Assembly: GCA_017474045.1 (NCBI GenBank)
Contig: JAFUHX010000046.1
Coordinates: forward strand, 1-45,118
From: Clostridia bacterium
GTDB taxonomy: Bacteria > Bacillota > Clostridia > Oscillospirales > Acutalibacteraceae
Length of the DNA: 45,118 bases
Direction of reading: 5' to 3'
The notes under the pieces were generated by a model. It was not told the origin of the DNA. It did not search any database and saw only the letters and a list, made by a program, of their open reading frames with translations. Position numbers and translations under genes: made by a program. This document shows positions 1 to 44,925 of the stretch, piece after piece; positions within the stretch are counted from its first letter, which is position 1; every line of letters starts with the position of its first letter.

Positions 1-180
1 CGTACAAAGGTACTCCGAGGGCGAGGTTTGTTTATAGCATAAAACGCAAAAACCTTGTTTTTGCCTGCTTTTGCTGATTTTTACAGTTTTAAAGGGTTTC
101 TTTGGTAGTTCAATATCGAAAGAAACCCTTTAGTTGTCTTGCTTTATGCGGTCTGCACTTTTTTTACAGCCCCTTCCTTT
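1..180 (-). repeat. 3'-end repeat element, copy 1, with hairpin 91-131
   Basis: Read on the minus strand this follows the stop of the secreted protease gene. It shows the family layout: a GCTGTAAAAAAA..GCAGACCGCATAAA flank (about 144-177), then a 13-bp hairpin (AAAGGGTTTCTTT at 91-103 paired with 119-131), then a T/A-rich exit. Bases 1-50 match a second block seen at 27538-27590 (TACAAAGGTAC and TTTATAGCATRAA), so the element probably continues beyond the window. The hairpin can act as a transcription terminator for the gene upstream of it. Confidence 0.75.
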
Positions 181-193
181 TTATTCAGTTTAA

Positions 194-2206
194 TTAATAC
201 ATGATTCGCTTGATAACCGTTCTGTCGGTTTTGCTTCCGTTAGCAAGGAATGCGCTGAGAGTTGTGCAGTTTTGTCCGCCGGGATCGTTGATTATGAAGT
301 CGGAGGTTGAAAAGCTTGTTGTGCTTGTTCCGTTATAGCCTTTAATAACAACCCAGTGCTGTGAACCGCCTGAAGATGTTGTTGCGCCGATGATAACGGG
401 TCTTCCTGACTTAAGCTTTGAATAAATTGTGGAAAGCATGCTGTTTGAAACACGGCAGTTATAAGCTTTAGAGGTCAGACCAACGTTTGAAATGGAGCTC
501 CAGTAAAGGTCGTTGTTGCTGTAGCTAAGCTTCTTCATAACTTCGTTGGGATAAACCGTTTTGCCGGTGTTATATGAATATACCATTGAAATGCAGGTTG
601 TTGTGCAACCGATTGCACCGATTGTTTTGGTTCCGATATAAACATTTTTCCAGCGGCTGTCTCCCTGCTTGAAAAGGGGAACATTGAGGTTGATTTTAGT
701 GTTGTTATTGGGCTTTGAAGTCTTGTAGCAATAGTCAAGGCAGACCCAACCTGAACGAGTGCCGTTTGTGCAACGGATAGAGCTTGAAAAACCCCATGAA
801 CCATTGACTTGACTAATATAGAAGGTTGTTCCTTTAGTCGCAGCTCCGACTGAAGAATAGTTTGATGAGGGACCTTTTCTTACATAAAGTCCGCTTCCGG
901 TGTTTATTGCATAGTAGCCGGTTGAATACCTGCTGACTGCTTTAACAGTTACCTTGCAGGTTGCTGTTTTGCCGTTAGAGGTTCTGACGGTGATTGTTGC
1001 AGTACCTGCGTTTTTAGCTGTTATTGTTCCGCTGCTGCTCACAGAGGCAACAGAGGTGTTGCTTGAAGACCATGAAACGCTTTTGTTTGTTGCGTTGGAG
1101 GGATAAACCGTTGCGCTGAGAGTTTTTGTTGAACCTGCGTTCAAAGAAACTGAAGAAGTGTTGAGGCTTACGCTTGTGGGATTAATTACTGCGCCTGAAA
1201 CAGCGGTAAAGCTGAATTTCTGAGCTGAAGAGAAGTTGCCCTGATAAAGCTGAACATTGGTACCGTTTGAGGAATGTGCGCCGTTGATATCGATATAATA
1301 AGCAGGGTTAAGCTTTGACTGAATGTAGTAGTATCCGTTGCCGGCAGGAATCAGTCTGAAAAGCTGAGCGTTTGACTTGTTAAGCGGCCACAAAGAAATG
1401 TTTTTGCCGTTGAGGGCGAGACCTGTGTGAACATCGAGAGCAAGACCGCTGTTGGAGTCAATGAAATAGTAATAGCCTGAGCCATAATAATAGGCTTTCC
1501 ATTGCTGGTTTTTAACGTTTGCCTTTTGCCAGAGATGAATGTTGGTGTCTGCAGAGGTGTTTCCGCCGCTGACGTCAATAACACTGCCCGGTGCACAGGC
1601 GGGGCTTATGTAATAAGCTTTTGCGTTTGAAAGGGGAGAAGAATATGATGTTTTAACGCTGCCGCGTGCCCAGATGGCATAAATTGTGGTGTTTGCGCTG
1701 ATTGAAACAGACTGACCGGGAGCGTATGCGGCTGTGGAAGCGTTGCGGTCATGGTGCCAACCGAGGAAAGAATAGCCTGAACGGTAGGGCATTGTCTGAC
1801 TGAGGTTAAAGGCTGCATTTTTGGCAACTCTTACTGAAGAGGGAGCGCCACTACCGCCATTCGAGTTATAATAAAGATTGAAATACTGAACTGAGGGGGC
1901 TTTTTTGGTGCAATATCTGAGTGAAACCCAACCGCTTCTGTAGCCATTGGTACATTTAATGCTAGATGTATAACCCCATTCGCCACTTGTTCTGGTGACT
2001 TCGAAGGTTGTACCTTTTGTTGCCGCACCTACGCGTGAGCTGTTTGAAGAGGGTTGCTTTCTGACGTTTGAGCCGTTGTTGCCGGCGATAACATAGGTTC
2101 CGCAGGAATATGAAGCTGCACTTGCAGAAAGGGTGAATATTCCGAAAACCGTTGTCAGAACGAGAATTAACGAAACTGCTTTTAATAAAAATTTACTACG
2201 GGACAT
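194..2206 (-). CDS. Secreted multidomain C39-like cysteine peptidase
   Basis: A 670-residue exported protein. Residues 1-31 are a signal peptide with a basic start, a hydrophobic core and an ASA-A cleavage site. Domains in order: SH3b (about 36-100), InlB/Flg_new-type repeat with GYSFLGW (about 108-180), ricin-type beta-trefoil with QxW-like motifs (about 197-335), Big2 Ig-like (about 343-422), a second SH3b (about 428-495) and a C39_2-type papain-like domain (about 505-670). Candidate catalytic residues are Cys534 in GCTTTC, His617 in QHWVV and Asn640/Asp641 in INDPG. SH3b, ricin and Big2 modules usually bind cell wall or sugars, so a surface or secreted protease or amidase is likely; the substrate cannot be read. 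The start is set by AAAGGAGA eight bases upstream of the ATG. The gene is monocistronic and ends in repeat copy 1. Confidence 0.88.
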   Translation of the reverse strand: MSRSKFLLKAVSLILVLTTVFGIFTLSASAASYSCGTYVIAGNNGSNVRKQPSSNSSRVGAATKGTTFEVTRTSGEWGYTSSIKCTNGYRSGWVSLRYCTKKAPSVQYFNLYYNSNGGSGAPSSVRVAKNAAFNLSQTMPYRSGYSFLGWHHDRNASTAAYAPGQSVSISANTTIYAIWARGSVKTSYSSPLSNAKAYYISPACAPGSVIDVSGGNTSADTNIHLWQKANVKNQQWKAYYYGSGYYYFIDSNSGLALDVHTGLALNGKNISLWPLNKSNAQLFRLIPAGNGYYYIQSKLNPAYYIDINGAHSSNGTNVQLYQGNFSSAQKFSFTAVSGAVINPTSVSLNTSSVSLNAGSTKTLSATVYPSNATNKSVSWSSSNTSVASVSSSGTITAKNAGTATITVRTSNGKTATCKVTVKAVSRYSTGYYAINTGSGLYVRKGPSSNYSSVGAATKGTTFYISQVNGSWGFSSSIRCTNGTRSGWVCLDYCYKTSKPNNNTKINLNVPLFKQGDSRWKNVYIGTKTIGAIGCTTTCISMVYSYNTGKTVYPNEVMKKLSYSNNDLYWSSISNVGLTSKAYNCRVSNSMLSTIYSKLKSGRPVIIGATTSSGGSQHWVVIKGYNGTSTTSFSTSDFIINDPGGQNCTTLSAFLANGSKTDRTVIKRIMY

Positions 2207-2260
2207 AAGATTTCTCCTTTTTTAATTTGATTTTTTCTGATGAGGTGTTCATTCTGAATA

Positions 2261-2287
2261 TCAGGGTGGACTAAGATGAAAATTCAT
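2261..2287 (-). CDS. Possible 8-codon leader ORF upstream of the protease gene
   Basis: On the minus strand AAAGGAGAAATCTTATG occurs here and again at the start of the protease gene 81 bases downstream. The two copies are the same in the ribosome binding site, spacer and ATG. The upstream copy opens an ORF of eight codons (MNFHLSPP) and stops. It is either a regulatory leader peptide or the scar of a duplicated translation start. No amino-acid run typical of attenuators is present. Confidence 0.35.
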   Translation of the reverse strand: MNFHLSPP

Positions 2288-2381
2288 AAGATTTCTCCTT
2301 TGCTGATTGATGTTTTGTTTTTCATCGTGACTATATCGTAAGACATAAAAATTGAAACAAAAAATGGGGGAAATCAAAAAA

Positions 2382-2412
2382 GGAGCTGTAAAAAACGAGT
2401 TTTTACAGCTCC
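2382..2412 (-). terminator. Rho-independent terminator of the TerB-like gene
   Basis: Inverted repeat GGAGCTGTAAAAA with a 4-5 base loop, followed on the minus strand by TTTTTT (A-tract at 2375-2381 on plus). It sits 19 bases beyond the stop at 2431. The stem is nearly the same as that of the terminator after rpoD at 8521. Confidence 0.85.
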
Positions 2413-2430
2413 ATATATATTATTGAAAGG

Positions 2431-2862
2431 TTATTTTGCCAAATCTTTGAGAAAATCACTTTCTTCTCTTGTAATCGTTTCGTCAACCGCGGCAACGATA
2501 AGAGCGAGAATACAGGCGGCAGACCTTCCTTCTTTTGAAAAAGAAGAAATAGCTTTGTTGCTCAGCTCAATGTTTTCTTCGCTTGTAACTGCTTCGCTTT
2601 TTAAAAGAGAAAGAAGATTTTCAGGCTCTGTTGAAAGAAGGTCTGAAATGAACTTCTGTTCAAGAAAAGTGAATTTTCCGTCAGCGGCAATTGCCTGAGA
2701 AATAAAAGTCAGAATAAAAAGCGAAACATTTACCTGAGAGCCTTCGAAATATTTTTCAGCCTCAGCTTCAAAAATTGAAAGCTTGCTCTTTCCTTTGTCA
2801 AGAAGCTCGCCGTAGCTTTTGTTAACATAGCTTTGAAAAATTTCGCTGAAGGGCTTTCCCAT
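2431..2862 (-). CDS. TerB-like domain protein, function unknown
   Basis: A 143-residue soluble, helical and acidic protein. Two segments resemble the acidic helix-turn-helix repeats of the TerB (tellurite resistance B) fold: AADGKFTFLEQKFI (about residues 58-71) and DETITREESDFLKDL (about 126-140). In TerB relatives such D-G-x-x-x-x-E-E motifs form a metal-binding, membrane-associated helical bundle. The start is set by AGAGGTG five bases before the ATG. It has its own promoter at 2890-2935 and its own terminator, so it is monocistronic. No tellurite-resistance genes are nearby and a resistance role should not be assumed. Confidence 0.55.
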   Translation of the reverse strand: MGKPFSEIFQSYVNKSYGELLDKGKSKLSIFEAEAEKYFEGSQVNVSLFILTFISQAIAADGKFTFLEQKFISDLLSTEPENLLSLLKSEAVTSEENIELSNKAISSFSKEGRSAACILALIVAAVDETITREESDFLKDLAK

Positions 2863-2910
2863 AAAAACACCTCTGTGATTTTTGCTTTAGTTTGAATTCT
2901 GTTACCTTAG

Positions 2911-2939
2911 GTTAACACAAAAAAATTCTAAAGTCAACA
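2911..2939 (-). promoter_or_regulatory. Sigma-A promoter of the TerB-like gene with an overlapping palindrome
   Basis: On the minus strand TTGACT is followed by a 17-base spacer and TAACCT. The -10 lies within a near palindrome (GTTAACCTAAGGTAAC, 2902-2917) that could be an operator. The match to the -10 consensus is modest. Confidence 0.45.
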
Positions 2940-2986
2940 AGACCGGTTTTATAATGATTTTTAATTATTCGTTAACAATGTAATAA

Positions 2987-3015
2987 TTGATTTAAGAAAT
3001 ATAATAAAATATAAT
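2987..3015 (+). promoter_or_regulatory. Sigma-A promoter for the small HTH-like gene
   Basis: TTGATT (2987-2992), a 17-base spacer and TATAAT (3010-3015), about 55 bases upstream of the start at 3070. Confidence 0.7.
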
Positions 3016-3069
3016 TTATTCGTTAGAGTGGAAATTGTTTTTTTAAAACAAAATCACAGGAGGACAAAA

Positions 3070-3327
3070 ATGAAATATAGTGAAAAGGAAATTCTCGGCT
3101 TAATTGAAAGATATAATTCAATGAACAGAAAGAATATTACCATCAATCTTTCAACTATTTATAAAACCCATGGATTTAAGAATAAAGACATAATAAGAGA
3201 TTTCGGCTATACGCCCTATAAGGTTAACAGTTGGAGTGCGCTCAGCTCACCAAATGTTCCGACCTTTGAAGACGCAATCAGACTCGCTGTTAAATATAGC
3301 TTTTCAATTGAGGAGCTTTTAAAATAA
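3070..3327 (+). CDS. Small protein with a possible Cro/C1-type HTH
   Basis: An 85-residue lysine-rich protein. The ATG at 3070 is chosen because AGGAGG ends six bases upstream; an earlier in-frame start has no ribosome binding site. The C-terminal half (KNKDIIRDFGYTPYKVNSW..FEDAIRLAVKYSFSIEELLK) has the length and hydrophobic spacing of an XRE-type helix-turn-helix ending in a typical 'xSIEELL' helix. Family assignment is tentative. It is flanked by its own promoter and has no operon partner. The following 100 bases are A/T-rich with no clear terminator. Confidence 0.6.
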   Translation: MKYSEKEILGLIERYNSMNRKNITINLSTIYKTHGFKNKDIIRDFGYTPYKVNSWSALSSPNVPTFEDAIRLAVKYSFSIEELLK

Positions 3328-3419
3328 GAAAAGTTGAGTTTTTAATTTTCTTAAAAAAAGAAAATTTTCAGCTTCTTAAAAAAAGTCTGTCAGTTTCTTT
3401 GAAAAAATCAAAAAAAGTG

Positions 3420-3448
3420 TTGATTTTTATTTTTGGTTGTGATACAAT
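3420..3448 (+). promoter_or_regulatory. Sigma-A promoter of rpmE
   Basis: TTGATT (3420-3425), 17 bases, then TACAAT (3443-3448). A short hairpin (CAGAC..GTCTG, about 3466-3480) follows in the leader just before the ribosome binding site, a position suited to translational control. No clear zinc (Zur) box was recognised. Confidence 0.7.
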
Positions 3449-3504
3449 ACTTCCTGCTAATGTCCAGACGAACTATGTCTGATATCTGAAATGAGGTGAC
3501 AGGA

Positions 3505-3714
3505 ATGAAAGAGGGAATCCATCCTAAATATGAACAGACAACAGTAAAATGTGCTTGCGGCGCAGTAATTGAAACAGGTTCAACAAAGCAGGGCTTGCGT
3601 GTTGACATTTGCTCAAACTGCCATCCGTATTTCACAGGTAAGCAGAAGCTTGTTGACACAGGCGGACGTGTTGACAGATTCAACAAGCGTTTCAATCTTG
3701 CTAAGAATAAATAA
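3505..3714 (+). CDS. rpmE: 50S ribosomal protein L31
   Basis: A 69-residue protein carrying the family signature IHPKY at the N-terminus, HPYFTGKQ in the middle and [11 protein letters not shown] near the C-terminus. It is the zinc-binding (C+) form, with CxC (CACG) and CSNCHP cysteine pairs. L31 binds the large subunit at the central protuberance. The start at 3505 follows GAGGTGA by about six bases. It stands alone with its own promoter; the YigZ-family gene begins 93 bases later. Confidence 0.97.
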
Positions 3715-3807
3715 TTATTTAAGTAAGAAAACCATTTCTAAGACGGCACAATTCTTCGAGGTTGTTCCGTCTTGTTTTTTTCTGAATAATAATGAGGCGG
3801 TGAAGCT

Positions 3808-4428: not shown

Positions 4429-4482
4429 TTCAGGGGAGAATTTCAGATTTTTTTGTATAAGTTAGGTATAGAAGGTGAAAAT

Positions 4483-5481: not shown

Positions 5482-5521
5482 ACCGAAAAATTTTGAATAA
5501 TCCTGAAAGGACGGTGAAAAA

Positions 5522-7288: not shown

Positions 7289-7310
7289 AAATCAGAAACA
7301 ATCTGATTTT
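7288..7310 (+). terminator. Weak hairpin between dnaG and rpoD
   Basis: AAAATCAG paired with CTGATTTT across a seven-base loop, starting at the dnaG stop and followed by TTCTG rather than a clean T-run. It could be a partial terminator or a processing site that lets rpoD be expressed more than dnaG. Confidence 0.5.
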
Positions 7311-7415
7311 TCTGAAACAACCTGTTAAAAAACATTTTCAAAGCGGCTCTTCAGAACTTAGCGGCGGCTTTTGTGATGTTTACCATAGATAAAAAAGAAA
7401 GGCAAGGAAGTTTTT

Positions 7416-8520: not shown

Positions 8521-8559
8521 AGGAGCTGTAAAAATGAGTTTTTTACAGCTCCTTTTTTT
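8521..8559 (+). terminator. Rho-independent terminator after rpoD
   Basis: A 14-bp perfect stem (AGGAGCTGTAAAAA, 8521-8534, with 8540-8553), a five-base loop and a T-tract of eight bases. It begins 14 bases after the stop. Confidence 0.95.
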
Positions 8560-12092: not shown

Positions 12093-12094
12093 AA

Positions 12095-18667: not shown

Positions 18668-20032
18668 ATGAAAAAAATAAAAATGCTTCTGCAGAGAACA
18701 TTGTTTTACAGAATATATCTTCTTTTTGTCAAGTATTTCAGAAAAACAAAAAAACTGATCAGAAACCAGATTAACCCAAGATATAATCGCTATCTTCTGA
18801 AGACAAAATATCCTGCAATTTACAAAAAGTATTCAAAATTGCCCGTTGACGAAAAAAAGGTTGTTTTTGTTGAAATCAGACTGCCAAAATTAACAAACAG
18901 CTATAAAGTCATTTATGATGAGCTATACAGAAACTATGATTTCGACATTCACTGCCATTTTCTCCGCAACACCTTTGTTTCAAGAAAAGAATACAGAAAG
19001 CGCTGCGAAGCTTTTATTAAAGATATTGCAACAGCCAAATATGTGTTTATGGATGAAGCCACAAACATAATGGGCAAGTTTGTTACCCGTGAGGAAACGG
19101 TTATAACTCAGCTGTGGCATGGCTGCGGTGCTTTCAAAAAATTCGGGTTCAGTACAGCTGACGCTATTTTCGGTGCTACCCGCGAACAGATGATAAAATT
19201 CCCCTTCAACAGAAACTATACCCATGTTACTGTCAGCAGCCCCGAAGTTATCTGGGCTTATGAAGAAGCCATGAACTACACCCATGAAAGCGGAGTAGTC
19301 AAAGCTTTGGGAAGCAGCAGAACCGACATTTTTTATGATAAAGATTTCATTGAAGAAGCATATAGCAACTTCTATGAGCTCATGCCTCAGGCTAAGGGTA
19401 AAAAGGTGATTTTATATGCACCCACATTCCGCGGAAGAGTTGCCAAGGCCACTTCTCCCAAAAGACTTAACATTGAGCTTTTGAAATATGCTTTGGGAGA
19501 TGAATATGTTCTTGTTACAAAACATCATCCTCTTGTCAGAAAGCTTCCTAATATTCCCGAAAACTGCATTGATTTTGCTCAGGATATGACAACCGACCTT
19601 TCAATAGAAGAGCTTCTTTGCGTCAGCGATATCTGCATTTCAGACTATTCATCTCTTGTTTTTGAATATTCACTTTTTGAAAGACCGCTGATTTTCCTCG
19701 CTCACGACCTTGAAACCTTCTTTGATTGGAGAGGCTTTTATTATGACTATTTTGAGCTCGCTCCCGGTCCTGTTGTGAAAAACACTTGTGAAATTCTCAG
19801 CTATATTAAAGAAATTGAAGAAAAGGGCTTCGACAAATCTCAGGTTGTTAAGTTCAGAGAAAGGTTTATGTCTTCCTGCGACGGTCACGCAACCGAAAAA
19901 ATTCTTAAAACAGCCATGACAGAGGAAGCAAGAGAAGCTTACAAGAAAAAAGAACCTCTCCCCAAAGAAAAATATCATCTTATTCCCTCAGCTGATGATT
20001 TTGACGGAGAAAAATATTCATTTGAAAAATAA
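18668..20032 (+). CDS. CDP-polyol phosphotransferase (TagF/TarL family)
   Basis: A 454-residue peripheral membrane enzyme of the CDP-glycerol glycerophosphotransferase family, which adds polyol-phosphate units to a lipid-linked chain. Family landmarks are WHGCGAFKKFG at 150-160 (catalytic His151 by analogy), YAPTFRG at 250-256, KHHPL at 285-289 and SDYSSLVFEYS at 325-335. The N-terminal 60 residues are strongly basic and suit membrane attachment. Its place after tarIJ suggests a CDP-ribitol donor, making it a ribitol-phosphate primase or polymerase, but donor choice cannot be read. The start at 18668 follows GAAAGGGG. The gene ends in repeat copy 2. Confidence 0.85.
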   Translation: MKKIKMLLQRTLFYRIYLLFVKYFRKTKKLIRNQINPRYNRYLLKTKYPAIYKKYSKLPVDEKKVVFVEIRLPKLTNSYKVIYDELYRNYDFDIHCHFLRNTFVSRKEYRKRCEAFIKDIATAKYVFMDEATNIMGKFVTREETVITQLWHGCGAFKKFGFSTADAIFGATREQMIKFPFNRNYTHVTVSSPEVIWAYEEAMNYTHESGVVKALGSSRTDIFYDKDFIEEAYSNFYELMPQAKGKKVILYAPTFRGRVAKATSPKRLNIELLKYALGDEYVLVTKHHPLVRKLPNIPENCIDFAQDMTTDLSIEELLCVSDICISDYSSLVFEYSLFERPLIFLAHDLETFFDWRGFYYDYFELAPGPVVKNTCEILSYIKEIEEKGFDKSQVVKFRERFMSSCDGHATEKILKTAMTEEAREAYKKKEPLPKEKYHLIPSADDFDGEKYSFEK

Positions 20033-20039
20033 AGTAATC

Positions 20040-20135
20040 GGTCTGTAAAAAATTTCAGACCGCATAAAACAAGAAAAACAAAGGGTTTCTTCCGGTTCAA
20101 CTACCAAAGAAACCCTTTTAACATTTATAAAGCTA
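20040..20135 (+). repeat. 3'-end repeat element, copy 2, with hairpin 20080-20118
   Basis: It follows the phosphotransferase stop by eight bases. Flank: GGTCTGTAAAAAATTTCAGACCGCATAAA, which itself can fold (GGTCTG with CAGACC). Main hairpin: AAAGGGTTTCTT with AAGAAACCCTTT. Exit: TTAACATTTATAAA. Same orientation as the upstream gene. Confidence 0.8.
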
Positions 20136-20171: not shown

Positions 20172-21752
20172 TTATTTTTTCAGTGCAATTTCTTCGCAGA
20201 TTTCTCTGAATACTCCTGCGCAGTCGGTGTTTCCGCCACTTCCGTTTTCACAAAGAACAACAACGATATAATGAGGATTATCAGAAGGATAAAAGCCGGC
20301 AAACCATGTTCGGCAAATTTCTTTTCCTTTTTCAAAAATTCCTGATTGAGCTGTTCCTGTTTTTCCGGCAAGAGAAAGAATTTCACTTTTAGCGTTTGAT
20401 GCGTTTCCGTTTTCCACAACAGAAGAGAGCATTTTTCTCATTTTAAGAACGGTGTTGTCAGAAAAAACCTTGGTTGCCACCGCATTTTCTTTTGTTTTAA
20501 CAAGACCGTTTGAGTTGGCGTAGCCATAAAAAATAGTTGGGGTAACAGCGTTTCCTGTAGCTAGGGCATGATAGACAGACAAAACATGAAGCGGAGACAT
20601 AAGAAGCCTTCCCTGACCGAAGGAAAGGTTAGCTCTTTCTCCTGCTGAGGCAAGATTATCGTTAGAGGGAAGAACACCCTTGGTGCCGCAGATGTTTTCA
20701 GCAATTTCTGTCTCGCTTTCTATGCCCAAAAGACGACAGATATAAAGCAGATAATCTCTGTCGATTTTTTCCATAAGATTTATAAAATAACAGTTGCAGC
20801 TTTTTTCAAGAGCTTCGGTCATGTTAATTTTTTTGTGTGCGGTTCCTTCAAAACAGCGAAAAACTGTGTCGCCGACTTTGATTTTTCCTTTGCAATTATA
20901 AACCAGACTTTCAGAAATTGCGTTTTCAAGAGCGCAGGCGGCAACAAGCGGTTTAAAAACTGACCCCACGCTATAGCTTTGAAGTGCTTTATTAACGAGA
21001 GGCGAGTTGTCTTCAGAAAGATTTTCAGAAACATCGTTTCTGTTAAAAACAGGAATACTTGCCAGAGAATAAATTTCACCGGTGTCAATATGCATAACAA
21101 TGGCGGCTCCGCTTCTTATCTTGCTTTTTTCAAGGGCGGCTTCAGTAATTTCCTGAATAACGCTGTCTATTGTTAAAACAACGCCCGCCTTTGAAGAAAA
21201 GTTATTGTCAACAACTGTTTTATCAAGCCCCGCTAAAGCTCTTCCGTGGGCGTCAACCTCAAATTTAACGCTGAGCTTTCCGCCGTTTTCCTTCAGATAG
21301 GTGTTATATGCTTTTTCAACACCTGAAAGACCGTTTGTCTCAGCCTTGTCAAGATATCCTGTTATATGGCAGGCAAAGCTTCCGCTGTAGCGAACGGGAA
21401 CAGAAAAGGTCCTGACAAGCTCCGTGTTGACCTCTTCCTTCAGCTCAAGAGAAAAGGGCTTTCCTGATTCGATTTTTTCAAGGAGCTCTTCTTTTGAAAG
21501 AGAAACAGCGGGCAACTCAGCGGCAGACGGAGAGGGAGTAACGGCGGCAATAAGCCTGTTTTCCCGGTCAGTAATAAGCCTTAAGTTTCTGTCATATATT
21601 TTTCCCCGTGATGAACCGATTTCAACGGTTTTTGTTTGTTGCGACCGAGCAGCCTGAGAAATCATGCTCATATTTATGTTTATAATTTTCATCATCAATA
21701 AAAGAAAAAGAGTTGTGACTGCAACAGAAACGGTAACAAGTCTGTTTTTCAT
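20172..21752 (-). CDS. Class B penicillin-binding protein (transpeptidase)
   Basis: A 526-residue membrane-anchored D,D-transpeptidase that cross-links peptidoglycan. One N-terminal membrane helix (about 5-25) is followed by the class B pedestal start RGKIYDRN (50-56). Catalytic motifs are SVFK (Ser264-Lys267), SCN (318-320) and KTG (464-466). It lacks C-terminal PASTA domains and is shorter than typical FtsI/SpoVD or PBP2 (580-700 residues). It could serve division, elongation or sporulation; sequence alone does not decide. The start is at 21752, with CAGGTGA upstream; a further in-frame start 42 bases earlier lacks a ribosome binding site. Confidence 0.92.
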   Translation of the reverse strand: MKNRLVTVSVAVTTLFLLLMMKIININMSMISQAARSQQTKTVEIGSSRGKIYDRNLRLITDRENRLIAAVTPSPSAAELPAVSLSKEELLEKIESGKPFSLELKEEVNTELVRTFSVPVRYSGSFACHITGYLDKAETNGLSGVEKAYNTYLKENGGKLSVKFEVDAHGRALAGLDKTVVDNNFSSKAGVVLTIDSVIQEITEAALEKSKIRSGAAIVMHIDTGEIYSLASIPVFNRNDVSENLSEDNSPLVNKALQSYSVGSVFKPLVAACALENAISESLVYNCKGKIKVGDTVFRCFEGTAHKKINMTEALEKSCNCYFINLMEKIDRDYLLYICRLLGIESETEIAENICGTKGVLPSNDNLASAGERANLSFGQGRLLMSPLHVLSVYHALATGNAVTPTIFYGYANSNGLVKTKENAVATKVFSDNTVLKMRKMLSSVVENGNASNAKSEILSLAGKTGTAQSGIFEKGKEICRTWFAGFYPSDNPHYIVVVLCENGSGGNTDCAGVFREICEEIALKK

Positions 21753-21850
21753 AAAATCACCTGAGAATATTTTCTGCTTTAACTTAATAAGCATACAAAA
21801 GAAAAAATTAGAAAAAAATCCAATAATTTATATAAAGTTTTAAAAAAGAC

Positions 21851-27305: not shown

Positions 27306-27319
27306 GATGAAGCCAAAGT

Positions 27320-27472
27320 TTGTTTATAGCATGAACCCTGTTTTTTTGCTTTCTGAAAGTTTTGGACTCATAAATATTAAAAAAGCTTCTTCAGGTTTTA
27401 CTACTCCGAAAAAGCTCTTTATGTTGTTTAGGTTTATGCGTTCTGCGCTTTTTTTGTCGCCCGGGCGAAGAA
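27320..27472 (-). repeat. 3'-end repeat element, copy 3 (tandem partner of copy 4)
   Basis: On the minus strand: AAAAAAAGCGCAGAACGCATAAACC flank, a hairpin made of CCGAAAAAGCTCTTT (27406-27420) and AAAAAAGCTTCTTCAGG (27379-27395), then AATATTTATGAGTCC. It is nearly the same sequence as copy 4, offset by 249 bases. The stem differs from copies 1, 2, 5 and 7 but keeps the layout. Confidence 0.75.
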
Positions 27473-27567
27473 AAAAAGATGCAGAATGAGCAAACTAAGC
27501 AAAAGCGAAGCTTTGCTTCGTTTTTGGCTGCCCGAAGGCGTACAAAGGTACGCCGAGAGGCGAAGTT
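27473..27567. repeat. Spacer block between copies 3 and 4, with two small hairpins
   Basis: Contains CGAAGC-TTT-GCTTCG followed by TTTTT (about 27506-27525) and GGCGTAC-AAAG-GTACGCC (27537-27554). The second hairpin and the following GCTTATAGCATRAA also occur at bases 1-42 of the window, so this block belongs to the repeat family. Confidence 0.65.
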
Positions 27568-27712
27568 GGCTTATAGCATGAACCGCTGATTTTTTTACTT
27601 TATTAATGTTTTGGACTCATAAATATTAAAAAAGCTTCTTCAGGTTTAATCACTCCGAAAAAGCTCTTTATGTTATTAAGGTTTATGCGTTCTGCGCTTT
27701 TTTTATCGCCCG
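27568..27712 (-). repeat. 3'-end repeat element, copy 4, overlapping the tsaB stop
   Basis: Same arrangement as copy 3, with the hairpin at 27628-27669. Its conserved flank (AAAAAAGCGCAGAACGCATAA on the minus strand) encodes the last residues IKKAQNA and the stop of tsaB, so the element begins inside the gene. Confidence 0.75.
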
Positions 27713-33676: not shown

Positions 33677-35440
33677 ATGATGACTTTAACTACCCGTTGG
33701 GCAAAAGAGGCAATGTGTAATAATCCCCTTCCCGAATATCCCCGTCCTCAGATGGTGCGCGATAATTGGGTCAATCTTAACGGAATGTATGAATACGCCG
33801 TAACAGACGAAAACACCCAATGGTGTGAAAAATTTGACGGCGAAATCAGAGTTCCCTTTGCTATTGAAAGTTGTCTTTCAGGTGTTTGCAAAAGAATTTC
33901 CAAAAACGACAGATTGTGGTACAGAAAAAGCTTTTCTCTTCCTGAATCATTCAAAGGAAAAAGAACTATTCTTCATTTCGGTGCTGTTGACTGGGAATGT
34001 AAAATCTATATCAACAAAACCTTAGTCGGCTCACATGTTGGCGGCTATTGTCCCTTCTCTTTTGATATAACAGACAGTCTTGTTGAAGGTGAAAATGAGC
34101 TTGTTGTTTGGGTTTATGACCCCACTGATGAAGCCTGGCAAAACAGAGGCAAGCAGGCAAGCTATTCCCACGGCTTCTGGTACACCTCAACCTCAGGTAT
34201 CTGGCAGACTGTGTGGATGGAAGCAGTCAGCGAAAACTACATTAAAAAATATAAGCTCACTCCCGATATCGACAAGGGTGTTTTGGCAATTGAAACCGAT
34301 GTTCAGGGCGAGGGCAGTCTTAAAATCAAGGTTTTAGATGGCGAAAATGTTGTTGCAGAAGAAGCTATTGACAAAAAGGCTGAGGTTTCTATTCCTGAGC
34401 TTAAGCTCTGGAGTCCTGAAAATCCCTTCCTTTATGATTTTGTTCTCACTCTTGAAAACGGCGAAACCGTTGACAGTGTTAAGGGCTATTTCGCAATGAG
34501 AAAATTCTCAATCGGCGAATATGAAGGCTACAACCGCCTCTTCCTCAATAACGAGCCCTATTTCCAGAGAGGTCTTCTCGATCAGGGCTATTGGAGCGAC
34601 GGTCAGCTCACTCCTCCCACCGACGAAGCTATGATTTATGATATTGAAACAATGAAACGCCTCGGCTACAATATGCTCAGAAAACACATTAAGGTTGAGC
34701 CTGCCCGTTGGTATTATCATTGCGACAGACTGGGAATGATTGTTTGGCAAGACATGGTCAGCGGCGGTCAGTTCCTCAACAATTTCTATGTTGGCGTTCT
34801 TCCCAATATCTATACTTTCCTCAGCCCCGTTATTGACCTGACCAAAAAGGATAACGCTTATAAAACCTTCTCAAGAGAAAAAATTGAGTGGAGAACTCAG
34901 TTTGAAGAAGAGCTTTTTGAAATGATTGACGCTCTTTATAACTATCCTTGTATTGGTTGTTGGGTTCCCTTCAATGAAGGCTGGGGTCAGTTTGATGCCA
35001 AGAGAATCGGCGACGCCGTTAAGGCTTATGATCCCACTCGCTTTGTTGACCACGCAAGCGGCTGGTATGACCAGAAGGGCTGTGACTTCAAGAGTATTCA
35101 CCGCTATATTCTTCCCTTCGTTGCTCCCAAATATGACGGAAGACCCATTGTTATCAGTGAATACGGCGGATACAGCCAGATTCTTGACGGCCATGTTTGG
35201 AACAAGGCAAAGAGCTTTGGCTATCAGATGTATAAATCAAAAGAAAGCCTCACAGAAGCCTACAGAAAGCTTCATGAGCATCAGATTATTCCCGCGATTA
35301 AGAAGGGCCTTTCAGCAACTGTTTACACTCAGGTTTCTGACGTTGAGTTTGAAGTTAACGGAATTCTCACTTATGACAGAGAAATCCTCAAGCTTGATGA
35401 AGAAATGCTTAAGGATATTAACTCTAAGCTTAAATATTAA
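33677..35440 (+). CDS. Glycoside hydrolase family 2 enzyme (beta-glycosidase)
   Basis: A 587-residue cytoplasmic GH2-type enzyme. Order: sugar-binding jelly-roll (about 15-190, with LWYRKSF and HFGAVDWECKIYINKTLVGSHVGGY), Ig-like domain (about 190-285), then the TIM barrel. The likely acid/base is Glu434 in WVPFNEGWGQ and the likely nucleophile is Glu495 in VISEYGGY. At 587 residues it resembles short beta-glucuronidase/galactosidase-like GH2 members rather than LacZ. Substrate is not readable. Its ribosome binding site, CAGGAGG, is strong. The neighbouring WYL regulator may control it; no transporter gene is close. Confidence 0.9.
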   Translation: MMTLTTRWAKEAMCNNPLPEYPRPQMVRDNWVNLNGMYEYAVTDENTQWCEKFDGEIRVPFAIESCLSGVCKRISKNDRLWYRKSFSLPESFKGKRTILHFGAVDWECKIYINKTLVGSHVGGYCPFSFDITDSLVEGENELVVWVYDPTDEAWQNRGKQASYSHGFWYTSTSGIWQTVWMEAVSENYIKKYKLTPDIDKGVLAIETDVQGEGSLKIKVLDGENVVAEEAIDKKAEVSIPELKLWSPENPFLYDFVLTLENGETVDSVKGYFAMRKFSIGEYEGYNRLFLNNEPYFQRGLLDQGYWSDGQLTPPTDEAMIYDIETMKRLGYNMLRKHIKVEPARWYYHCDRLGMIVWQDMVSGGQFLNNFYVGVLPNIYTFLSPVIDLTKKDNAYKTFSREKIEWRTQFEEELFEMIDALYNYPCIGCWVPFNEGWGQFDAKRIGDAVKAYDPTRFVDHASGWYDQKGCDFKSIHRYILPFVAPKYDGRPIVISEYGGYSQILDGHVWNKAKSFGYQMYKSKESLTEAYRKLHEHQIIPAIKKGLSATVYTQVSDVEFEVNGILTYDREILKLDEEMLKDINSKLKY

Positions 35441-35467: not shown

Positions 35468-35566
35468 GAAAGCGACTGTAAAAAGGTTCAGACCTCATAA
35501 ACTGAGATAAATAAAGGGTTTCTTCAGGATTCAAAAACCGAAGAAACCCTTTAAACATTAAGGTGT
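35468..35566 (+). repeat. 3'-end repeat element, copy 5, with hairpin 35513-35552
   Basis: Flank CTGTAAAAAGGTTCAGACCTCATAAACTGAG, a 13-bp hairpin (AAAGGGTTTCTTC with GAAGAAACCCTTT), exit TTTAAACATTAAGG. It is in the same orientation as, and about 30 bases beyond, the GH2 stop. Confidence 0.8.
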
Positions 35567-36654: not shown

Positions 36655-36667
36655 GAAATCAGATTAA

Positions 36668-36714: not shown

Positions 36715-36853
36715 TGATTTTGTAACCTGTTTTACGCAGATATTAATAAAAAGTTAACAAATATTGCGAAATTATGATATATAATAATTTTTAAACTGAT
36801 GATTAATATCTGGTTTAAACATTTTTAATATTAAGCGGAAGGGTTTTGATTAT

Positions 36854-38359: not shown

Positions 38360-38390
38360 AAAAATAAATAACGAATAAATCAGCCTACAT

Positions 38391-38430
38391 AAAAAGGGTT
38401 TCTTCAAGCTTATCTGAAGAAACCCTTTTT
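38391..38430. terminator. Bidirectional terminator, hairpin-only copy 6 of the repeat
   Basis: A 16-bp perfect stem, AAAAAGGGTTTCTTCA with TGAAGAAACCCTTTTT, loop of eight. It lies between the convergent SDR and hydrolase genes, with A/T runs on both sides. The stem is the same as in repeat copies 1, 2 and 5, but the conserved CAGACCGCATAAA flank is reduced to CTACATAAA. Confidence 0.88.
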
Positions 38431-38435
38431 GGTTT

Positions 38436-41056: not shown

Positions 41057-41068
41057 AACAAAACCTCC

Positions 41069-41278
41069 TTATGAATCGTCTCTGAATTCGAGAATGTCGC
41101 CGGGCTGACAGTTGAGAATCTTGCAAATGCTTTCAAGGGTTGAAAAACGAACAGCCTTAGCTTTACCCGTTTTCAAGATTGAAAGGTTAGCCTGAGTAAT
41201 TCCGATTTTTTCGGCCAGCTCACCGGAAGACATTTTTCTTTTGGCAAGCATAACATCCAGATTAACAATAATTGCCAT
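41069..41278 (-). CDS. Small XRE-family transcriptional regulator
   Basis: A 69-residue Cro/C1-type HTH of the YozG-like group: MSSGELAEKIGITQANLSILKTGKAKAVRFSTLESICKILNCQPGDILEF. The helix 2-3 motif (LAEKIGITQANLSILK) is clear. It lies 12 bases after the DUF2975 gene and before the DUF4173 gene. A DUF2975-XRE pair is a frequent arrangement in Firmicutes, with the HTH presumed to regulate its own operon. Confidence 0.93.
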   Translation of the reverse strand: MAIIVNLDVMLAKRKMSSGELAEKIGITQANLSILKTGKAKAVRFSTLESICKILNCQPGDILEFRDDS

Positions 41279-41290
41279 AAAACGCCCTCC

Positions 41291-41734
41291 TTATATTGTC
41301 AGTTCGTTTTCGTTTTTGATTTCGGTTGCCTTAGCCATAACATTTTTAAGAACTCTTAAAATAAGCATCATGAAAGCGGCGCCCAGAGAAAAAATCCACA
41401 TGGGAACATAGAAGAAACCTGAAACAAAACAAACAAATGAAACAAACATACAGCACCATGAGAGGATTCTCAAAGAAGAAACATTTTTCTCTGAAAAAAT
41501 TTCTCCTTTAATAATGTTTTTCAAAAGCTTGATTATATTTAAAAGCGCCAGAACAGCCGAAGCACTGCAGATATAAAAAGAAACAAGAACTGTTAACGAG
41601 TGCTCGGGTCTGTTCAGACCGAAAAACCAATCCACCAAGGGCTTGGCAAACACCAGAAGAAAAATCAGAAGACCACAGAAAAAATAGGTTATTGCCAGAG
41701 TGAGCTTTGCTGAAGAAAGAGAAGTGTATTTCAT
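41291..41734 (-). CDS. DUF2975 membrane protein
   Basis: A 147-residue protein with four predicted membrane helices (about 12-35, 48-70, 85-105 and 110-130). The layout, with a short loop KNIIKGEIFSEKNVSSLRILSWCC between helices 2 and 3, matches DUF2975. The partner XRE gene follows directly. The membrane protein may sense a signal and act on the regulator, an idea drawn from the conserved pairing. Its start follows GGAGGTTG. First gene of the operon. Confidence 0.85.
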   Translation of the reverse strand: MKYTSLSSAKLTLAITYFFCGLLIFLLVFAKPLVDWFFGLNRPEHSLTVLVSFYICSASAVLALLNIIKLLKNIIKGEIFSEKNVSSLRILSWCCMFVSFVCFVSGFFYVPMWIFSLGAAFMMLILRVLKNVMAKATEIKNENELTI

Positions 41735-41772
41735 AAAACAACCTCCGTGTATAAATATGATTGTAGCTTCAT

Positions 41773-41800
41773 TATAGTCGAAATTTATCGTTTGTCAATA
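41773..41800 (-). promoter_or_regulatory. Promoter of the DUF2975-XRE operon
   Basis: On the minus strand TTGACA, 16 bases, TATAAT. Just upstream, ATCGAATAAAAAT and ATTTTTGATTTTCGAT (about 41810-41845) form an imperfect inverted repeat with TCGA ends, which could be an operator. Confidence 0.65.
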
Positions 41801-41890
41801 AAAAATAATCGAAAATCAAAAATTTTTTATTTTTATTCGATTTAACTTTATTCGTTTTGGTTCAAGCTGTAACCAAAAGAGAAGAAGAAA

Positions 41891-41898
41891 CATAGAAT
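41891..41898 (+). promoter_or_regulatory. Possible sigma-E -10 for cotJABC
   Basis: CATAGAAT differs from the sigma-E -10 CATACAAT by one base and lies about 40 bases before the start. In Bacillus subtilis cotJABC is sigma-E dependent. No good -35 was found at the right distance, so the call is weak. Confidence 0.35.
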
Positions 41899-41940
41899 GA
41901 AACGGGATATCCCAAAAAACAAAAAAAGGTGGAGATACCG

Positions 41941-42168
41941 TTGAATAGCTACAGAACTTATGGTTATCCGCAGCAAAATTCTTATGAAAGGTGCATTACG
42001 CCTGCTTCCTGCAAAGCGATCTCTTCTCTTCCCGAGGTTGTTTCAGTTGCCATGGCCTATGTTCCCTTTCAGGAAAGCAACGATGTTTATTCTTGCGAAA
42101 AGGCTTTAGTCAGGGGAACAATTTTTCCCGTTCTTGATAAGCCTTTTCTTGCGGGGTGCTGCAGATGA
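41941..42168 (+). CDS. cotJA: Spore coat associated protein CotJA
   Basis: A 75-residue protein rich in Pro, Tyr and Cys, matching CotJA: an N-terminal Tyr-rich stretch, then PEVVSVAMAYVPFQ and ALVRGTIFPVLDKPF. It belongs to the inner coat of the endospore and is made in the mother cell. The TTG at 41941 follows GGTGGAG by six bases; a GTG four codons earlier lies within that site. The stop overlaps the cotJB ATG (ATGA). First gene of cotJABC. Confidence 0.9.
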   Translation: MNSYRTYGYPQQNSYERCITPASCKAISSLPEVVSVAMAYVPFQESNDVYSCEKALVRGTIFPVLDKPFLAGCCR

Positions 42169-42416
42169 CTGCAAATCAGAACACAATGATGGAAAAAATT
42201 ATGGCTGTTCGTTTTTCTGTCTGGGACCTGCATTTATATCTTGACTCACATCCTTGCGACAAAACGGCAATGGAGCTTCTTGAAAAATATAAAGAGAAAA
42301 ATGCAGTTTTAACAGCTGAATATGAAAGCCGGTTCGGTCCGTTGACTCCTTCTTCAGGAAGCGGCGAAGAATGGACAAAGGCACCGTGGCCCTGGCAAAT
42401 GGTAGGTGATTGCTGA
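42165..42416 (+). CDS. cotJB: Spore coat protein CotJB
   Basis: An 83-residue protein matching CotJB: MAVRFSVWDLHLYLDSHP, a Lys/Glu helix, YESRFGPLTP and the WTKAPWPWQ motif near the C-terminus. It is needed for proper assembly of CotJC in the coat. The ATG overlaps the cotJA stop, with GGGGTG just upstream. Its TGA overlaps the cotJC ATG by one base. Confidence 0.93.
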   Translation: MTANQNTMMEKIMAVRFSVWDLHLYLDSHPCDKTAMELLEKYKEKNAVLTAEYESRFGPLTPSSGSGEEWTKAPWPWQMVGDC

Positions 42417-43027
42417 TGTGGGAATATCAGAAACTTTTGCAATATCCTGTTAAAATAAAAACCCCCAACGCAAAATTCGCCCAGATAATTGCAAGTCAGT
42501 ATGGCGGCCCTGACGGCGAATTGGGTGCTTCTCTTCGCTATTTAAGTCAGCGCTTTTCAATGCCTTATCCCGAGCTTCAGGGAATTCTGACTGACATCGG
42601 TACTGAAGAGCTGGGGCATCTTGAAATGGTTGGCTCAATAATCTATCAGCTGACGAGAAATCTTTCTCCCGAAGAAATTAAAAAAGCAGGCTTTGACGCC
42701 TATTTTGTTGACCACACAACAGGCGTTTATCCCGCTTCAGCTGCCGGAGTACCCTTTACGGCGGCATATATTCAGTCAACAGGAGATCTTTTTGCTGACC
42801 TTCATGAAAACCTTGCTGCAGAACAAAAGGCAAGAAAAACCTATGATAATATTCTCAGACTTGTTGATGACCCTGATGTCTGCGACGCAATAAAATTCCT
42901 CAGAGCCAGAGAAATTGTTCACTATCAGCGCTTCGGTGAAGCCTTGAGAATTGCAACCGATAGGCTTAACGAGAAAAACTTCTATGCCTTCAATCCCTCT
43001 TTTGATAAGGCGTGTAAATTAAATTAA
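42416..43027 (+). CDS. cotJC: Spore coat protein CotJC (manganese-catalase-like)
   Basis: A 203-residue ferritin-like four-helix protein of the manganese catalase family that forms part of the spore coat. Metal-binding pattern: Glu35 in DGELGASL, Glu65 and His68 in EELGHLEM, a Glu in AAEQKARKTY and ExxH in REIVHYQRF. If metallated it would break down hydrogen peroxide. TAGGTGA precedes the ATG. Last gene of the coupled cotJABC operon, followed by a long hairpin terminator. Confidence 0.95.
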   Translation: MWEYQKLLQYPVKIKTPNAKFAQIIASQYGGPDGELGASLRYLSQRFSMPYPELQGILTDIGTEELGHLEMVGSIIYQLTRNLSPEEIKKAGFDAYFVDHTTGVYPASAAGVPFTAAYIQSTGDLFADLHENLAAEQKARKTYDNILRLVDDPDVCDAIKFLRAREIVHYQRFGEALRIATDRLNEKNFYAFNPSFDKACKLN

Positions 43028-43060
43028 GCTCCTTTTTTAAATAGCTTTATAAGTAAAGCT

Positions 43061-43125
43061 TCCTGAGAGACACTTTGCGAAAGAATTTATGCTTTCCGAA
43101 GTGTCTTCTCAGGCTGTTTTGTTTT
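43061..43125 (+). terminator. Terminator of cotJABC
   Basis: A long, slightly imperfect hairpin: CCTGAGA..ACACTT..CTTTC-type arms on both sides of AATTTATG, closing with GAAGTGT and TCTCAGG, then CTGTTTTGTTTT. Confidence 0.82.
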
Positions 43126-43159
43126 ATACAGTTTTGTAATAAAAAAGATTAAAAACCTA

Positions 43160-43188
43160 TTGAAAAAACAGTAATAAAATGTTATTAT
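43160..43188 (+). promoter_or_regulatory. Promoter of the secreted hydrolase gene
   Basis: TTGAAA (43160-43165), 17 bases, TATTAT (43183-43188), about 30 bases before the start. Confidence 0.6.
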
Positions 43189-43218
43189 TTTGTTAACATT
43201 TTTTTGGAGGAGTGTAAA

Positions 43219-44799
43219 ATGAAAAATTTTAAACGAATTCTTTCTCTTTTGTTAACTGCAATTTTGCTTCTCAGCGTAATGGCACCGGCTGCAAGCGCTG
43301 CAGAAAAAGATATTCCCATCATCTATCTTGAAGGATATGGCGGAAATCTTTATAAAGATGATAAGAATCCCACAGATGAAAATCAAATTTATCCCACAGG
43401 TGCCGATGTCGGCGGAATAATTTCCGAAGCTTTAATGCCTTGCCTTGAAGAGCTTGCAATTGGTTACATAACCAAGGATTACAGTAAGTATTCCGATGAG
43501 CTTTATAACGCTCTTGCTCCTGTTTATGAAGACATTCTTCTTGATAAAAACGGCGAAGCTTCCGACGGAAGCGGCGACGGAGATGATATGCTTCTGAAGC
43601 CCTTTATTATCAAAAACTACAGCGGTGTTTACAAAGCATACAGATTCAAATATGACTGGAGACTTTCTCCCATGGCTCATGCTGATGAGCTTATGCTCTT
43701 TATTGAAAGAGTAAAGGCTGCAACCAAGTCTGATAAGGTTGCCCTTGTGGGAAGATGCCTCGGCGGAAACATTATTTCTGCTTATCTTGCAAAATATGAA
43801 AACCACGCTGCTTCTAATATTGAGTCAGTTGTTCTTATCAGCACTTCAACAATCGGAATCAAGTTCCTCAGCGGAATTTTCTCAGGAAATATTGTTATCA
43901 ATGAAGACGGTCTTGACCGCTTTGCAGATTATTGGCTTAAAAACAAGGGCATAATGGAAGACGCAGAAATGGCAAATCTTATCAGTGCCTTTGTTTCATT
44001 CATGAGTGAAGCCAAGCTTCTCGGAATCGGAACAGATACGTTGCAGTCTATTGTTGATGACGTTAAAGATGATTGCGTTTCAAAGCTCGCTCTTGCTTGC
44101 TATGCAAACTTCCCGTCATATTGGGCAATGGTAACACCTGAAAAATATATCGAAGCCAGAGATTATATCTTCAAGGGAATTGAAGATGAATATGCCGGTC
44201 TTATTGCCAAAACCGACGATTACTATTATAACTGTCAGCTCAAGATTGAAGAAACAATGAAAAATCTTAAAGCGAAGGGCGTTAATTTCTGTATTCTTTC
44301 AAAATATAACCTTCCTTCATTCCCGCTTTATGAAGAATCAAACGAAAGCGGCGACCTTTTCACCGGTGTTTATGAAACATCTTTAGGCGCAACAGCGGCT
44401 GATATAAACAAGGTTCTTCCTGATAGCTATATTTCTTCTCTTGAAGACACAAAATATCTTTCACCTGACCACAAGGTTGACGCTTCAACCTGTCTTTTCC
44501 CTGACACAACATGGTTTGCGAAAAATTGTCAGCATGCTGAGTTTACAACATACTATGATGTTCTCTCTCTGAAGTTCATCAGATCCAAGGGCGCAATGAC
44601 CGTTTTCACTGACGAAGCCTTCCCGCAATATCTTATGCATATTGACGATGTAAACTATTCTGTTGTTGAAGGTCTCGATGAGCCTACTCCCCAGCCCGGC
44701 TCAAATGAAAACAGATTCCTTGCTTTCATCAGATTTTTCACAGCACTCTTTAACTTCCTCGGAAGAGTTTTCAGAGGTGAGGTTTCTTTTGGTGGCTGA
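43219..44799 (+). CDS. Secreted alpha/beta hydrolase (LCAT/lipase-like) with Cys in the nucleophile elbow
   Basis: A 526-residue exported protein with a signal peptide at 1-28 (MAPAASAA). The fold is alpha/beta-hydrolase: YLEGYGGNLY supplies the oxyanion strand, YRFKYDWRLSP resembles the LCAT-type 'YDWR' motif, and the nucleophile elbow is VALVGRCLGGN with Cys180 where Ser is usual. After about residue 490, PTPQPGSNE is followed by an aromatic amphipathic segment, FLAFIRFFTALFNFLGRVFRG, a possible membrane or wall attachment. Substrate is unknown and loss of activity is possible. The start follows GGAGGAG. The gene ends in repeat copy 7. Confidence 0.78.
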   Translation: MKNFKRILSLLLTAILLLSVMAPAASAAEKDIPIIYLEGYGGNLYKDDKNPTDENQIYPTGADVGGIISEALMPCLEELAIGYITKDYSKYSDELYNALAPVYEDILLDKNGEASDGSGDGDDMLLKPFIIKNYSGVYKAYRFKYDWRLSPMAHADELMLFIERVKAATKSDKVALVGRCLGGNIISAYLAKYENHAASNIESVVLISTSTIGIKFLSGIFSGNIVINEDGLDRFADYWLKNKGIMEDAEMANLISAFVSFMSEAKLLGIGTDTLQSIVDDVKDDCVSKLALACYANFPSYWAMVTPEKYIEARDYIFKGIEDEYAGLIAKTDDYYYNCQLKIEETMKNLKAKGVNFCILSKYNLPSFPLYEESNESGDLFTGVYETSLGATAADINKVLPDSYISSLEDTKYLSPDHKVDASTCLFPDTTWFAKNCQHAEFTTYYDVLSLKFIRSKGAMTVFTDEAFPQYLMHIDDVNYSVVEGLDEPTPQPGSNENRFLAFIRFFTALFNFLGRVFRGEVSFGG

Positions 44800-44828
44800 G
44801 TTTTCGGTTAATAAAAAGCCAAATTTTA

Positions 44829-44925
44829 CGGGCTGTAAAAAAGCTCAGACCGCATAAAACTGAAATGACAAAGGGTTTCTATAGATATTGTAGTCTATAG
44901 AAACCCTTTTAACATTTATGAATAT
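44829..44925 (+). repeat. 3'-end repeat element, copy 7, with hairpin 44870-44909
   Basis: Flank GGGCTGTAAAAAAGCTCAGACCGCATAAA, then a 16-bp perfect stem AAAGGGTTTCTATAGA with TCTATAGAAACCCTTT, exit TTTAACATTTATGAA. The inner half of the stem (CTATAG) differs from the other copies but remains paired. It lies 30 bases after the hydrolase stop in the same orientation. Confidence 0.82.

Follow-up and report, generated by a model that had tools for sequence, protein, structure and literature searches.

A folded, probably mobile repeat of Clostridia that usually lies between stop codons and Rho-independent terminators

What kind of unit recurs behind so many genes, with a hairpin that varies in sequence but stays paired? 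This question was raised by a contig of Clostridia bacterium (assembly GCA_017474045.1, contig JAFUHX010000046.1, positions 1 to 45,118; this whole stretch of 45,118 nucleotides is called the window here). A preliminary description, made from the letters alone, had proposed either a lineage-specific terminator or 3'-untranslated-region (3'-UTR) module or a domesticated small mobile repeat. We put at roughly 0.7 the probability that the recurring sequence belongs to a non-autonomous mobile repeat of about 240-250 bp in Clostridia, which resembles miniature inverted-repeat transposable elements (MITEs) and whose usual site is the interval from stop codon to terminator.

A repeat family throughout the genome

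The repeat family is real. The 13-base core CAGACCGCATAAA occurred in 50 exact copies in the 2.51-Mb genome, compared with none for the reversed control, and at up to two mismatches 189 matches were found against 55. A covariance model of the left end and its hairpin, built from 43 sequences (R1), gave at least 140 matches at E<=0.01 when 150 of 3985 first-look candidates were scored. In our own reading of that list, 8 matches duplicate a copy on its other strand and 7 lie on contigs C101, C88, and C90, which repeat parts of C27, C82, and C38, so that distinct places number roughly 125. Copy counts are inflated because the assembly is partly redundant: the compared stretches of contig pairs C101/C27, C88/C82, and C90/C38 share 72 of 73, 69 of 70, and 83 of 101 60-mers, respectively. 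Many near-identical copies sit at contig ends, and the element therefore probably causes contig breaks in these metagenome-assembled genomes (MAGs).

Anatomy, fold, and covariation

A complete unit begins with a left end (LE; GGGGNTGTAAAAAAAGYGCAGACCGCATAAAAC) and a hairpin (H1). A variable segment then leads to a strongly conserved middle (GTTTTATGCTAYRAACAAACYTCGCCNCTCGRCGTACCTTTGTACGCCTTCGGG), which is followed by another hairpin and by a right end (RE; GTTTGTTCATTCTGCGCATTTTTTTCCTANCCCC). The two ends form an imperfect inverted repeat and are separated by 106-330 nt in 52 of 54 paired matches. Of the longer spans, one of 3393 nt (L069) contains host genes between separate copies, and one of 485 nt (L143) holds only open reading frames (ORFs) below 100 codons. 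The unit is thus short and noncoding and carries terminal inverted repeats, as expected of a MITE.

The element has a conserved, T-shaped three-way-junction fold. Helix P1 is formed by the two ends, P2 (GCATAAAAC/GTTTTATGC) encloses the variable hairpin H1, and P4 (AACAAAC/GTTTGTT) encloses further hairpins. Two copies folded along with their adjacent terminator gave the same junction, with z values of -12.7 and -11.6 for the whole stretch.

Covariation was evaluated on 31 copies, non-redundant at 92% and drawn from the 41 of 54 paired matches with 180-240 nt between motifs; five of the 31 come from this genome. When the structure of one copy was laid over all 31, 84.3% of 2534 cells were paired, compared with 36-50% after sliding. 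Both sides had changed in 38 of 86 pairs, and the covariation score was reached by 0 of 500 shuffles. The right-half hairpin was clearest, with 11 of 12 pairs altered on both sides and 93.4% paired. For H1 the values were 9 of 15 and 74.9%, the paired fraction being lowered because the length of H1 varies in the alignment. Unguided RNAalifold recovered the outer stem, P2, P4, and the right-half hairpins from the 31-copy alignment but not H1, which it found in a 43-sequence left-half alignment. Both alignments therefore bear out the initial impression that the stems vary yet remain paired.

Some copies deviate from this plan. The P2 or P4 module is lost and the paired ends are kept in L142, L183, L162, and L260. 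In G140, G238, G394, G386, L121, L144, and L170, the conserved right half or middle is joined to different left or inner parts, which suggests modular exchange of element parts.

Position at gene ends

The element usually lies between a stop codon and a Rho-independent terminator, with its right end on the terminator side. Among 47 complete copies away from contig ends (of 52), a same-strand stop codon lay no more than 15 nt from LE in 30, and an opposing stop lay that close to RE in only 4. In 25 of the 47, RE stood 43-73 nt from the opposing stop, about the length of one terminator. The 65 nt to the right of the element folded below -12 kcal/mol in 34 of 48 complete copies, versus 10 of 48 on the left, and discordant copies with a stable hairpin on one side only numbered 27 right and 3 left in a hand count. 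Terminators of the type AAAAGGGGCTGTAAAAAAAC...GTTTTTTTACAGCCCCTTTT account for many of the hairpins on the right; they also exist away from the element.

Orientation relative to genes was less regular. The 47 complete copies comprised 34 with genes converging from both sides, 7 with a left gene only, and 6 with a right gene only. The corresponding numbers were 21, 7, and 10 for 40 short copies of this genome, with 2 having neither, and 5, 6, and 1 for its 12 fuller copies. Counted by other rules in three sets, the upstream gene pointed at the element in 66/89, 20/20, and 64/79 cases; 7 of the 188 copies lay inside ORFs. Contexts in these sets were 77 convergent and, in tandem, 25 co-directional and 18 reversed. 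Full copies had been described as lying downstream of a gene and in its orientation, which is correct in the window. Genome-wide, once convergent pairs are set aside, it is a weak rule at best. The ratios outside such pairs (25:18, 7:6, 7:10 for short copies, and 6:1 for fuller ones) come close to the random orientation that the preliminary description had named as evidence against its proposal. From the position and orientation counts we therefore conclude that the location at gene ends is real, that the lean toward gene orientation is weak, and that the polarity toward the terminator is clear.

Spread between species and genera

The element has spread between species and genera. A copy in this genome and one in another species of the genus (G001) agree at 233 of 236 aligned bases (4 gap columns), compared with 353 of 444 for the rpiB gene. 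In this genome two tandem units precede rpiB; at the 29 other loci of the genus, no left end was found within 600 nt before the gene (30 loci were fetched for 33 genomes with a match, and contig ends truncate a few of them). Of 29 other loci of the PBP gene (20172-21794 here), 1 has a left end within 400 nt after the gene, as a shortened copy in G003. The protein upstream of the copy in L091 was unusable as an ortholog marker, matching in 7 of 34 genomes, six of them at 29-37% identity.

Within the family, the covariance model matched at least 11 of 150 genomes (10 of 135 genera), which is a floor because the filters were strict. The complete element as a DNA query matched 34 of 398 genomes at E<=0.001 (19 of 135 genera). 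Long matches, covering at least about 230 of 255 bases with 69-98% identity, occurred in 14 of 398 genomes and 8 genera in our own tally from the listing. Among the matches listed from a pattern scan (at least 90 stretches), carriers were mostly titled Clostridia, Oscillospiraceae, and Eubacteriales MAGs, and at least L189, titled Lachnospiraceae, was unlike the element. The RGIG carrier MAGs come from the guts of goat, cattle, sheep, roe deer, and water buffalo; the SIG MAGs are without a stated source. A search for a viral reservoir gave no match to the left end and a single match to the middle motif, by eye without other features of the element.

Near-identity between species at unrelated genes, absence at orthologous loci, patchy occurrence among genera with long matches in 8 of them, and tandem arrays together give good support to the earlier suggestion of a small mobile repeat. 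Dispersed and mobile copies are likewise what is expected of a MITE.

Element ends and insertion site

To delimit the element, about ten bases on the outer sides of the LE A-run and the RE T-run were compared in 52 copies and re-paired across copies in 5000 permutations. LE and RE matched at 5.67 positions within a copy and at 4.50 when re-paired (standard deviation, 0.14; 0 of 5000), although three rows were cut by locus ends and two of these scored 0. Bases beyond the ends showed no within-copy match (3996 of 5000 permutations). Because the ends agree and the outer flanks do not, the element boundary is placed at GGGG/CCCC, and the two ends drift together. Both flanks are A-rich, and by-eye listings showed no clear duplication.

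We propose that a transposase acting in trans would recognize the ends. Its target would be the A-rich foot of a terminator hairpin, whose arms (GGGGMTGTAAAAAAAC) are similar to the ends of the element itself. Insertion at a terminator foot would spare genes, and insertion at the end of another copy would build arrays. Insertion into the terminator loop, which would make the element ends the two arms of a host hairpin, was rejected because the element ends pair with each other and so do the arms of the adjacent terminator, as judged from the listing by eye and the end permutation.

In one genome (L116, L117, and L134), the terminator beside RE seems to be shared between copies, and in L117 and L134 its arms match incompletely. 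The element might extend further right in that genome.

Copies in the window

Left end and hairpin were found at all six sites listed in the preliminary description. The features are as follows.

1..173, minus strand: long copy, truncated where the window and contig end; left end 173-143, H1 131-91, start of the right half (GTTTTATGCTATAAACAAACCTCGCC...) 45-1; model E 3.4e-14; after gene 2206-194 (minus)
20039..20118, plus strand: short copy; left end 20039-20068, H1 20080-20118; model E 4.8e-14
27463..27711, minus strand: complete element, tandem unit 1, direct repeat spacing 249 bp; left end 27711-27682, H1 27669-27629, conserved middle (GGTTCATGCTATAAGCCAACTTCGCC...GTACGCC) 27584-27526, right end 27489-27463
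27314..27462, minus strand: tandem unit 2, right part lost; left end 27462-27433, H1 27420-27380, start of the middle 27338-27314; before rpiB (27237-26785)
35472..35552, plus strand: short copy; left end 35472-35501, H1 35513-35552; model E 3.4e-13; upstream glycoside hydrolase gene 33677-35440, next gene co-directional
38381..38430, plus strand: worn copy or related terminator; CAGCCTACATAAA, then hairpin AAAAAGGGTTTCTTCA..TGAAGAAACCCTTTTT; terminator-like by terminator scan
44829..44909, plus strand: short copy; left end 44829-44858, H1 44870-44909; model E 1.9e-14; after gene 43204-44799

At up to two mismatches, CAGACCGCATAAA matched the window 7 times, compared with a mean of 1.14 and a maximum of 4 in 100 shuffles. 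Six of the matches are listed copies; the seventh, at 1671, falls inside a gene. The extent first assigned to the element was right for its left half and overlooked the right half: at 1-180, and in the pair at 27.3-27.7 kb, the copies are elements of about 250 bp or what is left of such elements. Similarly, the site at 38391-38430 had been taken for a hairpin only. The hairpin is there, preceded by a worn left end with three differences, so that the feature spans 38381-38430.

In the copy at 20039..20118, the left end is itself a perfect local hairpin (CGGTCTG/CAGACCG), and no further terminator-like hairpin was found between H1 and the opposing stop (the two genes end at 20032 and 20172). A TsaD-domain ORF at 27.7 kb enters the left end of the element (27683-27711), which supplies its stop codon. 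Host terminators GGAGCTGTAAAAA..TTTTTACAGCTCC occur at 2381-2412 and 8521-8552. Their arms resemble the element ends, and the type is also present in other carriers.

Elsewhere in the genome, whole units form tandem arrays at a spacing of about 250 bp on C4, C82, C14, C7, C13, and C27, with up to four consecutive model matches on C4. Other arrays consist of the left end only, repeated two to four times with a period of 39-41 bp and followed by a longer unit:

L046, 3365-3485
L035, 188-228
L042, 198-239
L056, 78-119

A second repeat, starting with GGGGCGGTAAAAAAAGCAAATTTTTTCTCGATGCAACGGACACGGCAAGCCGTGTCC or a close variant, directly follows several copies in this genome (L006, L013, L040, L056, and L069).

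H1 as a possible terminator

In this genome H1 consists of a GC stem followed by a T-tract, like a Rho-independent terminator. Host GTAAAA..TTTTAC hairpins had T-tail scores of 3.03 forward and 2.95 reverse (n=54), compared with 1.24 and 1.10 for random hairpins (n=650). H1 reached 2.94 and 3.51 in short copies (n=42) and 3.40 and 3.14 in fuller copies (n=24). In other genomes, H1 scored 1.75 forward, near random, and 2.85 reverse (n=25), and a forward score of 3 was reached by 8% of these hairpins versus 11% of random ones. A consensus terminator scan of positions 20001-45118 called the hairpin at 38390-38431 and a right-half hairpin at 27520-27506; no other H1 was called, the loop limit of 8 in the scan excluding most of them.

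No second terminator-like hairpin was found to the right of the first in 17 of the 21 convergent short copies, although in three of those 17 (L052 at 4442, L071 at 3044, and L082) the terminal hairpin is not H1. Some of the copies counted as short are array units that have been truncated. Judging from these sequences, H1 looks like the only terminator left at many sites in this genome. The idea of a lineage-specific terminator is supported in part: here H1 has host-like T-tracts in both directions and is often the sole such hairpin between converging genes, and in other genomes its forward tail is near random. In this lineage H1 may act as a two-way intrinsic terminator, and worn copies that have lost the right half and the neighboring host terminator would persist as terminators at gene ends.

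Search for a mobilizing enzyme and for known families

Neither a mobilizing enzyme nor a longer copy was found in the fetched loci and related genomes searched. The transposase searches covered PF01797 and PF13751 in fragmented assemblies. The Y1 (REP-associated) transposase PF01797 had no match in this genome (G000, 96.9% complete), so that a REP/RAYT system is not indicated and a Y1/IS200 parent was rejected. An IS1182-type parent was also rejected, PF13751 being present in 0 of 11 element-bearing genomes (17 were searched, and two noncarriers have it). A pattern for either end gave 26 matches in eight related genomes versus 0 for the control, all of them single ends or pairs about 230 bp apart, with no pair at the distance of an insertion sequence (IS). 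In the fetched loci, end-like motifs 0.6-4 kb apart were array neighbors, separate copies, or weak matches, and no transposase was found in the 10 scanned of 23 ORFs (at least 100 codons) between them.

At the contig start in G003 (L112, 1-160), a left end is joined to hairpins that resemble those of IS200/IS605. This junction may have arisen by insertion into the element, or the sequence may be a longer relative.

In scans of the window and of 14 loci, no Rfam family, group II introns included, matched the element at gathering score; a 5S rRNA was the sole match in those loci. A lax search with one copy produced weak matches only (best E, 0.031), all below gathering scores. Judged by titles and abstract openings, no description of this repeat was found in the literature.

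Alternative explanations

Several observations weigh against a MITE-like mobile repeat placed at terminators. The lack of a mobilizing enzyme or longer copy and of a transposase between end-like motifs, reported above, is one; another is that neither a clean target-site duplication nor a base-exact empty site was found. The terminal bases of LE and RE change in step, which we take to be atypical of DDE transposons. Copies are not all alike even in this genome, where two of them agree at 213 of 229 bases. As for placement, 14 of 48 right ends have no stable hairpin alongside, in some copies of this genome the right-hand hairpin is another repeat unit, and small genes were missed because gene calls required ORFs of at least 90-100 codons. 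The near-random forward tail of H1 in other genomes and the three convergent copies that end in a different hairpin tell against the part assigned to H1.

The element could instead be a structured 3'-UTR module, whose junction is selected as RNA at mRNA ends for stability, processing, or termination, with spread being secondary. Strong covariation, left ends close after stop codons, and the weak lean to gene orientation (25:18, and 6:1 in fuller copies here) are consistent with this. Selection on sense RNA is expected to raise G-U above A-C at paired sites, and in H1 of this genome G-U:A-C was indeed 63:29 (60 distinct, related stems), and 37:11 in the left-half alignment A2, most of whose sequences come from this genome. 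However, the cross-genome set of 31 copies showed no clear preference: 25:20 in H1, 6:8 in the right-half hairpin, and 112:102 over all helices. Host terminators gave 8:14, and the tRNA control was tiny (11 stems with 6 G-U and 1 A-C). The covariation behind the first proposal of selection on RNA structure is real; a preference for RNA over DNA may be reflected in the excess of G-U in H1 here, an excess hardly seen across genomes. Since orientation outside convergent pairs was also near even (7:6 and 7:10) and the element is patchy across genera and not conserved at orthologous genes, we consider a 3'-UTR module rather unlikely.

The same absence of a clear strand preference in the cross-genome covariation would suit a folded single-stranded DNA that is moved, as REP or attC sequences are, by a putative recombinase reading the T fold. 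End sequences might then drift as long as they still pair, because the fold would be what is recognized; the ends do co-vary in pairs, and P2 or P4 can be lost with the paired ends remaining. RNA or duplex palindromes account for the pairing as well, and this genome has no Y1 transposase, making structure-directed mobility unlikely. A further conjecture, also unlikely, is that the element is recognized by its folded shape, not by fixed end sequences, and docked by such a recombinase, in one polarity, against terminator hairpins, with its own hairpin replacing the displaced terminator.

Ordinary intrinsic terminators that look alike through shared composition are a very improbable explanation and already contradicted: although the arm sequence is common to host terminators and the H1 tails here are of terminator grade, the 13-base motif far exceeds its control (50 versus 0), and units of 240-250 bp align end to end between genera and are nearly identical between species.

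Relation to known systems and significance

The MITE-like mobile repeat favored here, with its matched imperfect terminal inverted repeats and its tandem arrays at about 250-bp spacing, can be compared with several known systems. According to the portion of PMC3049150 considered, BOX, RUP, and SPRITE of Streptococcus pneumoniae are small, folded, interspersed repeats that are unusually frequent between convergent genes; the terminal repeats pair in BOX and RUP, and SPRITE lies near gene 3' ends and may be co-opted as a terminator. The present element shares with them a structured, small form, enrichment between convergent genes, and, for one of them, apparent co-option for termination. It differs in host and fold, as judged from descriptions without comparison of sequences, and here paired ends, a terminator-like hairpin, and a fixed polarity toward a neighboring terminator occur together in a single element, which also crosses genera. 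It resembles MITEs, as portrayed in part of PMC10969869, in being short, noncoding, structured, and present in many copies with terminal inverted repeats, and departs from them in that no parent transposase was found, no target duplication was demonstrated, the ends drift together, and placement at terminators is polar. Group IIC (bacterial-C) introns also reside at Rho-independent terminators; according to the portion of PMC8919778 considered, they insert just after them, with distance measured from the intron 5' end. In our case the right end faces the terminator foot, and Rfam intron models did not match where scanned. Insertion sequences that target REP palindromes are likewise mobile and favor palindromic intergenic DNA (PMC1525189, in part), whereas the neighbor here is a terminator and the mobile unit is without a gene.

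By its defining features the element is MITE-like, although neither a parent element nor a clear target duplication was found in the sequences searched. It stands apart from the repeats compared above in its three-way-junction fold, its co-drifting ends, its polar placement at terminators, and its spread over genera. Its distribution shows how a selfish repeat can occupy compact bacterial genomes safely, by sitting beside terminators, and in one lineage its inner hairpin seems to have assumed termination between converging genes. If the polarity rule holds, it would offer a clue to a putative mobilizing enzyme.

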